DNA of 54,047 nt from Prochlorococcus sp. AG-424-A03 (GTDB lineage Bacteria > Cyanobacteriota > Cyanobacteriia > PCC-6307 > Cyanobiaceae). A program made the position numbers and the translations under genes. The stretch spans positions 1 through 54,047 of the forward strand of contig QCNA01000004.1 in the NCBI GenBank assembly GCA_003213375.1, read 5' to 3'. Numbering within the stretch: the stretch's first letter is position 1; the number at the start of each line of letters is the position of its first letter. Below the pieces are notes generated by a model. That model worked only from the letters and a program-made list of their open reading frames with translations. It was not told the DNA's origin and searched no databases. Of the stretch, positions 51,031 to 52,526 are shown piece by piece.

Positions 51031-52188
51031 TTAAGAACGAACCTGCACAGGCATAACTAAGTAAGTAAAAGAATTAAGATTATCTTCTGGCACAAAAACA
51101 GCTGGAGTAGTTGCAATATTACACTTTAAAAGTACATTTTCAGAAGCAATAACTTTTAAACCTTCCAACAGATATCTTACGTTAAACGCAATATCAAAAT
51201 TTTCTCCAGAATAAGAAACAGGTATTGATTCATTTGCATTTCCAATATCTTGTGCATCTGCGCTGATTGAAGCTAAATCTTTATCATCTAATTTAATCTT
51301 TACAACACTACTTTGCTGATCAGCTAAAACAGCAATTCTTTCTAATGCATCAATTAATTTTTTTGTATTAAAATTTAGAATTTTAGAAAAAGAATCAGGA
51401 ATTAATTGTGAATAATTAGGATAAGTACCTTCTAAAGTTCTTGTAGTAATTATTTGATTAGAAGATATAAATACTACTTGACCTTTGTCATAGAAAAGCT
51501 TAATTGAATTTTCTGAGCTTCTCAAAGATACTAATTTTTCAATTTCTCTTAATGATCTAGTTGGGATAGTTACCGATAATTCATCAACATTTGAAGATAA
51601 GTTTTCTTTATTTTCAATATGTTCTTCATTACCAATTAAAGCAACAGCCAATCTATGACCATCTGTAGAAGCAGACTCTAAATAATTTGTTTTGAAAGTA
51701 AAATTGACACCTGTGAGTAGTTGCTTTGAATCATCATTACTACTGGCAAAAATGGTAGATTTTAAAGCCTTTAAAAAAGAACCAGGATCAATATTCAAAG
51801 AAGTACCGCTTTCAACAAATGGTAAATTAGGATATTCATCAGATGGTATCCCTTTTAGATTAAAAGAACCTCGGTCACTTTTTATTAGTATATTATCTGA
51901 ATTCTCGTCTACTTCTAAAGAAACAGGAGTTTCATTAGGTAGTTTGTTTACTATTTCGGATAAAAGTTTTGAAGGTATAGTAATAGCTCCACTATTTTTA
52001 ACAGTTCCATCAAAAGAAGTTTGAATTCCTAAATTCAAGTCAAATCCTGTGACGCTAATTTTATTAGTTCCTTCATCAGCTGTTAAAAGTATGTTTGCAA
52101 GAATTGGATGCGTTGGCCTTGAAGCAACTGCCTTGCTTACTAGTTGTATAGCATTATTTAATTCATTTTGATTACAAATAATTTCCAT
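51031..52188 (-). CDS. dnaN: DNA polymerase III beta subunit (sliding clamp)
   Basis: DnaN is the ring clamp of the replicative polymerase. At 385 aa it has the three repeated clamp domains. Visible landmarks are MEIICNQNELNNAIQLVSKAVASRPTHPILANILL, LTGVNF, STDGHRLAVA, TIPTRSLREIEKL, LIDALERIAVLADQQSSVVKI, and the C-terminal YLVMPVQVRS that forms the hydrophobic cleft. A good promoter lies 27-55 bases upstream, inside the putative origin. It heads a run dnaN-PRC-purL-purF on the same strand. Confidence 0.98.
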   Translation of the reverse strand: MEIICNQNELNNAIQLVSKAVASRPTHPILANILLTADEGTNKISVTGFDLNLGIQTSFDGTVKNSGAITIPSKLLSEIVNKLPNETPVSLEVDENSDNILIKSDRGSFNLKGIPSDEYPNLPFVESGTSLNIDPGSFLKALKSTIFASSNDDSKQLLTGVNFTFKTNYLESASTDGHRLAVALIGNEEHIENKENLSSNVDELSVTIPTRSLREIEKLVSLRSSENSIKLFYDKGQVVFISSNQIITTRTLEGTYPNYSQLIPDSFSKILNFNTKKLIDALERIAVLADQQSSVVKIKLDDKDLASISADAQDIGNANESIPVSYSGENFDIAFNVRYLLEGLKVIASENVLLKCNIATTPAVFVPEDNLNSFTYLVMPVQVRS

Positions 52189-52214
52189 CAGAATTTGGAA
52201 CTTTTTACAAATAC

Positions 52215-52243
52215 AATATACTTTTTTCGTAAATTAAATTCAA
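52215..52243 (-). promoter_or_regulatory. Probable dnaN promoter
   Basis: On the minus strand TTGAAT (52238-52243, 4/6 with the important TTGA) and TATATT (52215-52220, 5/6) are separated by 17 bases. The -10 ends 26 bases before the dnaN ATG, giving a short leader. This is among the best promoter matches in the window. Confidence 0.5.
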
Positions 52244-52299
52244 TAAATTTATTTTTTACTCTATTTCTAATTTAAAAATAAATAATAAAATAAAAAATT

Positions 52300-52311
52300 T
52301 AGTAGTAGTAG
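52300..52311. promoter_or_regulatory. Four TAG triplets, DnaA-trio-like element
   Basis: Read on the minus strand this is CTACTACTACTA, directly after two DnaA-box-like sites and before a run of A/T only. The complementary strand read 3' to 5' is GAT repeated, the form of the DnaA-trio element described in Bacillus subtilis and many other bacteria, where DnaA filaments grip single-stranded DNA. Confidence 0.55.
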
Positions 52312-52394
52312 TTATTGTGGGAACTGTGGAATTCTTAAGTTAAACAGCTTGTCTATTAAGTTTACAAAGAAAAGAGTATGTGTAAAAAAAATTT

Positions 52395-52449
52395 TATTTG
52401 TTGAATATTTTTTTCTTTTTTCGAAAATTTTAAACTTATTCAACAAATA
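52395..52449. repeat. 13-bp perfect inverted repeat in the putative origin
   Basis: TATTTGTTGAATA (52395-52407) and TATTCAACAAATA (52437-52449) are exact reverse complements, 29 bases apart. A further TCAACAAAT copy occurs at 52471-52479. Each arm contains TTCAACA, one base from the TTCCACA core of the DnaA boxes, so the arms may be weak DnaA sites in opposed orientation. Confidence 0.8.
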
Positions 52450-52526
52450 GAATTTCTTGTTATGTACTTTTCAACAAATTAGGTTTGTTTTTAATTGATT
52501 TCCACAGACACTATTTTTTTTGGACT

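Follow-up and report, generated by a model that had tools for sequence, protein, structure and literature searches.

A putative basal unwinding system beside dnaN in Prochlorococcus and the bases at the centre of picocyanobacterial DnaA-trios

Known basal unwinding systems and the dnaN-thrC gap

Among 2070 predicted origins, 1755 contain a basal unwinding system (BUS), which is therefore an established kind of origin element (PMC8287927), and the DnaA of S. elongatus opened its cognate boxes and trios in vitro (PMC8287927). The published rules call for a better box with at most two mismatches to the species' own box, a second box with at most four, a spacer of at most 16 bases, and at least three consecutive 3'-NAN-5' trios, among which GAT is the commonest (PMC8287927). 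In the DnaA pocket of B. subtilis, Arg202 and Glu228 bind the G of the trio, Asn187 binds the amino group of the central A, and the third base is flanked by Ile190 and Ile193 (PMC10721633); the central A can be replaced by C, not by G or T (PMC10721633). "Deviant" trios lacking the central A have been suspected (PMC8287927), and recognition of other sequences by DnaA homologs has been raised as a possibility only (PMC10721633). No report of natural C-centred trios was found in the open-licence literature, although that literature was partly covered and absence is not proven, and within the same partial scope no BUS description for Prochlorococcus was found. When metagenome reads of Prochlorococcus are mapped with the terminus fixed, coverage falls linearly on both sides, as it would from a single origin, the position of which is left unspecified (PMC9589681). 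An earlier note on this DNA had described Prochlorococcus origins as poorly defined, which is half right, as origins beside dnaN have been predicted for most cyanobacteria (PMC4674748, PMC6323995).

The window, meaning the whole stretch of 54,047 nucleotides analysed here, comes from a draft assembly of 1.10 Mb in 57 contigs (G000, 64% complete) whose closest named kin in a dnaN-based fetch is Prochlorococcus. Between dnaN and thrC lies a gap of 338 bases (80% A+T), adjoining dnaN as most cyanobacterial origins do (PMC4674748), while dnaA is located on a separate contig. On the minus strand of this gap, AATTCCACA, GTTCCCACA, the spacer ATAA and CTACTACTACTA, which is (CTA)x4, are followed by 50 bases of 94% A+T toward dnaN; this order of boxes, trio and AT-rich tract had been claimed in the earlier note, and both its coordinates and its sequence were confirmed. 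The features are listed below, where percentages of identity are means over 79 relatives from the best 80 of 195 loci.

51031 to 52188, minus strand: dnaN, DNA polymerase III beta clamp (385 aa; TIGR00663, 329 bits, cut-off 138)
52189 to 52249, minus strand: end of the gap next to dnaN, presumed to hold the promoter and leader of that gene, strongly conserved over 52189-52234
52250 to 52299, no strand: AT-rich stretch, presumed melting region (94% A+T)
52300 to 52311, minus strand: DnaA-trio array CTACTACTACTA (plus strand TAGTAGTAGTAG, the strand DnaA would bind, 3'-GATGATGATGAT-5'); 98.7% identity
52312 to 52315, minus strand: four-base spacer from box to trios (plus strand TTAT), free in its letters (70% identity) and fixed in length
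52316 to 52324, minus strand: trio-proximal DnaA box GTTCCCACA (7/9; plus strand TGTGGGAAC); 94.2% identity
52325 to 52333, minus strand: second DnaA box AATTCCACA (7/9; plus strand TGTGGAATT), abutting the trio-proximal box; 99.0% identity
52379 to 52387, minus strand: accessory DnaA-box-like site TTTTACACA (8/9); 93.4% identity
52468 to 52476, plus strand, opposite orientation: accessory site TTTTCAACA (8/9); 97.7% identity
52498 to 52506, plus strand, opposite orientation: accessory site ATTTCCACA (8/9); 97.0% identity
52527 to 53630, minus strand: thrC, threonine synthase (367 aa; TIGR00260, 321 bits, cut-off 167)

When the cyanobacterial box TTTTCCACA is used, the order and spacing agree with the published BUS rules, which supports the DnaA-trio-like basal unwinding element proposed in the earlier note. 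Each tandem box matches TTTTCCACA at 7 of 9 positions (two mismatches) and the E. coli box TTATCCACA at 6 of 9 (three mismatches), the spacer measures four bases, and four consecutive 3'-GAT-5' trios stand beside the AT-rich tract, whose A+T content of 94% over 50 bases is reached by only 0.13% of the window's 50-mers. The earlier note had regarded the imperfect boxes as its weak point, and both are indeed 7/9; the weakness is mild, however, because better boxes stand at the corresponding positions in relatives (TTTTCCACA GTTTCCACA in G119). While CTACTACTACTA alone is expected 0.02 times in the window and occurs once, the composite of two boxes and trios, with three or fewer mismatches, was found at one place in the window and in none of 100 shuffles, indicating that the module is not due to chance. 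The core CCACA-N4-CTACTACTA occurs at one place in the draft genome with no mismatches, and the reversed control of this pattern at two places with at most one mismatch. Single 8/9 boxes are as frequent in the window as expected (32 versus 31.5) and are thus uninformative singly, but all three 8/9 sites of the gap are conserved (93-98% identity in the best 80 of 195 loci); two of them (52468-52476 and 52498-52506) had been named in the earlier note and are real, and the third (minus strand, 52379-52387) had been missed. As judged from sequence, the window element is an ordinary and canonical example of an established class, and it is well conserved.

Conservation of the module and of dnaA

Close relatives were represented by the best 80 of 195 Prochlorococcus loci fetched by dnaN (two of them labelled Synechococcaceae), 79 of which reach far enough upstream (L041 was too short and was excluded). 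The module occupies the same position in all 79 readable relatives of this best-80 set, with CTACTACTACTA exact in 67 and changed by one base in the other 12, and identity in the flank just upstream is 78%. Since the spacer has kept its length and not its letters, it behaves as a geometric spacer, as expected. Among the 77 pattern-matched relatives of the best 80 of 195 loci, the second box is AATTCCACA in 71 and the first is GTTCCCACA in 51, and two loci outside the pattern set (L014 and L070) both carry the module with one changed base. In addition, the 46 bases immediately upstream of dnaN (52189-52234) are conserved like the origin boxes (96.7% identity in 79 relatives from the best 80 of 195 loci), and are probably the dnaN promoter and leader.

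At the family level, the dnaN-upstream regions of 146 relatives were compared (142/146 with a dnaN match and four more), leaving out the genomes G002, G012, G090 and G105 (no dnaN match) and G088, G103, G137 and G139 (partial match). Two abutting boxes, four bases and a four-triplet array, oriented like dnaN, were found in 145 of the 146, representing 37 genera, so that the conservation of triplets and boxes that the earlier note had proposed as a check was observed both here and in the close relatives. Among GC-rich members the boxes are worn (for example, TTTTCCCC), and cyanobacterial boxes are reported to drift to G or C in GC-rich species such as Cyanobium (PMC6323995); a few modules are weak by profile score (G042, 3.2; G063, 6.0). 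In the 98 GC-rich relatives, presumably marine Synechococcus and Cyanobium, mean A+T content is 69% over the 40 bases that follow the trios, compared to 35% farther on. One genus of family f1 (g38, including G100 and G125) shows joint drift of the two boxes to forms such as TTAACCACA and GAAACCACA with mostly canonical trios, which suggests an altered box preference in one lineage.

Outside the family, 39 genomes from 38 families were searched with a profile that ignores the trios (score of at least 15 beside dnaN). Twenty-five of the 39 pass this box profile, 24 of them with a CTA tract (of only two triplets in G161) and one (G374) with boxes only; an alternative rule demanding T at the centre was matched by 25 of the 39. 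The distance from module to dnaN ranges from 107 to 638 bases in these genomes. The module adjoins dnaA, away from dnaN, in G166, whereas that of G231 is part of a group of eight TTWTCCACA boxes away from both genes; in G177 a strict match is located away from dnaN. Across 44 genomes the strict pattern was matched at 26 places, compared to seven for its reversed control, so that some strict matches are chance. The module was not found despite the presence of dnaA in G234, G208, G196, G374, G290, G392, G319 and G170 among the outside-family genomes searched, and the strict pattern is missing in 16 of 40 dnaA-bearing genomes, some of which also lack a module beside dnaN; dnaA therefore does not force a BUS there.

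A separate NAG-rich element (for example, TAGAAGAAG) was observed downstream of the trios in genomes such as G014, G092, G026 and G011, where it is trio-like on the other strand and inverted, at a median of 31-35 bases past the array, where the AT tract ends; such a second, inverted array may mark the far limit of the melting region. It is present in 25 of 34 low-GC genomes outside genus g1 (shuffles: mean 7.8, largest 13), in 38 of 98 GC-rich genomes (shuffles: 10.6 and 19; the opposite orientation also in 33 of 98), in 2 of 13 genomes of the window's genus, and in 9 of 24 outside the family (shuffles: 6.0 and 12).

DnaA-independent replication arose several times in cyanobacteria (PMC7198777). 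In a search covering 61 family genomes, G000 included, dnaA was found in all except G018 (L135; 1.9 Mb). Among the 146 family relatives, the module likewise was not found in G018 alone, which was thus omitted from the trio count. The end of thrC and the start of dnaN are still neighbours in G018, approximately 150 bases apart, and the stretch before dnaN is present in the assembly. With the genome rated 95% complete, the missing dnaA could be an assembly gap; G018 is a candidate for DnaA-independent replication among picocyanobacteria. Outside the family, neither a full dnaA nor the strict pattern was found in G389, G278 and G272; the last is a single contig, 99% complete, without a dnaN match (TIGR00663) or full dnaA. 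A class-wide tie between loss of dnaA and loss of the strict pattern (0 of 4 genomes without full dnaA versus 24 of 40 with it) was not adopted, the numbers being too few, and three of those 24 (L266, L267 and L280), having no TTWTCCACA box nearby, were taken as chance.

Base-specific constraint on the trios and the DnaA pocket

Trio bases were counted in 145 arrays (580 triplets), read on the strand DnaA would bind; L089, L285, L290 and L351, whose contigs start inside the second box, were anchored by hand. The first base is G in 569 of the 580 triplets. The centre is A in 409, C in 162, G in 4 and T in 5, that is, A or C in 571, and the third base is T in 417, C in 151, A in 10 and G in 2. 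The triplet directly after the array has no such constraint (first base A 58, C 37, G 3, T 47), which sets the length of the array at four trios. The anchoring profile contained trio 1, so that counts for trio 1 lean to CTA, but not trios 2-4, the centres of which are A in 269, C in 157, G in 4 and T in 5. All four centres are A or C in 136 of the 145 arrays, and 54 arrays from 15 genera have two or three C centres; each of the nine exceptions has one deviating centre, either G (G023, G064, G094 and G112) or T (G030, G081, G097, G145 and G147). In this register, only 60 of the 145 arrays have three consecutive A centres, and GC-rich relatives thus fall outside the published rule of three consecutive NAN trios.

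Changes were counted by parsimony on a dnaN protein tree of 83 family members and five outgroups, from which two truncated outgroup proteins were excluded; the counts are approximate because a single-gene tree resolves deep branches poorly. Centres changed from A to C 22 times, from C to A 16 times, from C to G three times and from C to T twice, with no change from A to G or A to T. Over 100 bootstrap trees, the changes from A numbered 18-26 to C and 0-1 to G, and those from C numbered 2-3 to G and 2 to T. At the third base of the same trios the changes were T to C (19), C to T (9), T to A (5) and C to G (2). Transitions therefore dominate at base 3, whereas base 2 shows almost none (Fisher 1e-13, trios 2-4).

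The DnaA of G000 aligns without gaps to chain 8btg of B. subtilis in the pocket, and all five residues are identical, with N187, I190, I193, R202 and E228 corresponding to N201, I204, I207, R216 and E242. Across 89 cyanobacterial DnaAs (G000 included), Asn is kept in 88, Arg in 88, Ile190 in 88, Ile193 in 89 and Glu in 89. The DnaA of G119 (L247) is the only one of the 89 with Asn187 replaced by Ser and Arg202 by Lys, and its trios are canonical. The constraint on each trio base (G at base 1, A or C at base 2) matches, at the level of sequence comparison, the pocket seen by cryo-EM, and contact with an amino group predicts what was observed, a fixed pocket with a centre alternating between A and C. 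A reader of T or G on the other strand may leave the same pattern and is indistinguishable from it by sequence alone. It is probable that the centre of a natural trio must be A or C, the two bases with the amino group contacted by Asn187 (an amino rule), that the motif is better written 3'-G(A/C)(T/C)-5' than 3'-GAT-5', and that picocyanobacteria have exchanged A for C approximately 20 times under an unchanged pocket, leaving working C-centred trios that NAN searches miss. The new part is the relatives, as the trio centres of GC-rich genomes appear to have moved repeatedly from A to C while the DnaA pocket stayed the same.

Origin identity, alternatives and comparison with known systems

The gap is very likely the chromosome origin (oriC), with 52300-52333 as its basal unwinding system. 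By analogy with work on B. subtilis, H. pylori and S. elongatus, it would be the site of DnaA binding, strand opening, helicase loading and origin firing. Two DnaA molecules would bind the abutting boxes on the minus strand, and their AAA+ domains would build a filament toward dnaN along the plus strand that takes up the four trios 3'-GATGATGATGAT-5', flipping out the G and A of each; the AT-rich stretch at 52250-52299 would then open for helicase loading, with the sites at 52379, 52468 and 52498 as putative accessory boxes.

Nucleotide skew, calculated from 20 sampled stretches of 12 kb in each of two genomes, provides moderate evidence for origin activity. The contig of G106 has its start away from dnaN, and both its GC skew and its AT skew switch between the samples at 897 and 975 kb, with dnaN at 930 kb (permutations fitting equally: 2 of 300 for GC and 25 of 300 for AT), and an alternative switch at 1131-1209 kb fits GC nearly equally. 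In G070, GC skew gave no signal (268 of 300 permutations as good), while AT skew, the sign of which was chosen after the data had been seen, switches across dnaN (14 of 300 permutations). For the GC-skew check suggested in the earlier note, the switch brackets dnaN in G106, while in G070 AT skew alone points to dnaN. Strand bias of open reading frames in both genomes points elsewhere and is not significant. Many complete records start approximately 170 bases before dnaN, but this was set aside as a convention of depositors rather than evidence (PMC7198777 on putative origins).

There are several potential alternatives to this interpretation. It is unlikely that the A-to-C changes reflect GC pressure, or a reader of double-stranded DNA, rather than the DnaA pocket. 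Where upstream GC is below 0.40, trios 1-3 have A at every centre and C is confined to trio 4 (8 of 47 genomes), all other C centres occurring in GC-rich genomes, as such pressure would have it. However, G at the centre would raise GC equally, yet C outnumbers G by 154:4 over the four centres of the 98 GC-rich genomes, while the same ratio is 9:12 at one step beyond the array and 121:224 for the bases of the spacer. Fourfold sites of dnaN favour the base that would give G (coding strand of 53 GC-rich genomes: C 5780, G 4252; the dnaN of G035 was a 250-aa fragment); GC pressure alone would therefore yield G at the centre at least as often as C, and a count of 20 out of 25 changes, set against this fourfold expectation, gives a binomial probability of 5e-5.

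A different role for the tract, as a control region of dnaN at which DnaA or another protein acts as operator-binder while replication starts elsewhere, is quite improbable. While the tract does lie just upstream of dnaN, in a gap whose dnaN-proximal part is strongly conserved as well, such a role does not account for modules that adjoin dnaA (G166) or sit in a box cluster away from both genes (G231), for the variable distance to dnaN outside the family, for a constraint that acts triplet by triplet on a single strand and stops abruptly beyond the fourth trio, or for the skew switch at dnaN in G106. An even smaller probability attaches to the boxes and trios being an inherited relic in cells whose replication is now DnaA-independent, as in Synechocystis 6803 and Nostoc 7120, although the repeated emergence of DnaA-independent replication in cyanobacteria (PMC7198777) and the weak skew in G070 would agree with it; a relic would decay, yet in nearly all arrays each of the four centres is still A or C, and the sole family member in which dnaA was not found is also the one in which the module was not found. 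Finally, a chance CTA repeat beside chance box-like sites has a negligible probability. Single 8/9 boxes are about as common in the window as chance would give, but the rarity of CTACTACTACTA, the absence of the composite from all shuffles and the conservation in relatives speak against chance, and this reading was rejected as refuted by conservation.

If the gap is the origin and the module its unwinding system, 34 testable bases would replace a predicted gap as the origin of Prochlorococcus, a dominant phototroph of the ocean. The picocyanobacterial series amounts to a natural mutagenesis of the trios that indicates which base of the triplet is read, and it supports the base-capture model of B. 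subtilis in a distant phylum. It also suggests an improved search rule for origins of GC-rich bacteria, perhaps covering part of the 15% of origins without a trio (PMC8287927).

Compared to the BUS of B. subtilis oriC (boxes 6 and 7 with DnaA-trios), the module has the same two co-oriented boxes, short spacer and 3'-GAT-5' repeats on one strand, and the pocket residues of DnaA are identical. The B. subtilis BUS also has an AT-rich tract, as here. The differences are that the boxes here abut without a gap and are both imperfect, that dnaA is on another contig, and that there are exactly four trios, all GAT. The change allowed in the B. subtilis series of central-base substitutions, in which C and not G or T replaces the central A (PMC10721633), is the one seen here in nature; unlike the natural series of the relatives, those substitutions were made by mutation and in one species (PMC10721633). 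The module belongs to the same class as the oriC and BUS of S. elongatus, which also lies near dnaN (PMC8287927, PMC7198777). Two genomes of family f11, presumed to represent S. elongatus, read TTTTCCACA TTTTCCACA GCCC followed by CTACTACTACTG or CTATTACTACTG, and therefore have perfect boxes compared to the 7/9 boxes here. The location and box also resemble those of the cyanobacterial oriCs predicted by DoriC and Ori-Finder, which dnaN flanks in 55 of 68 species and which have TTTTCCACA as the box; these are predictions of place, and the accessible text of their sources contains no trio analysis of picocyanobacteria (PMC4674748, PMC6323995, PMC10225481).
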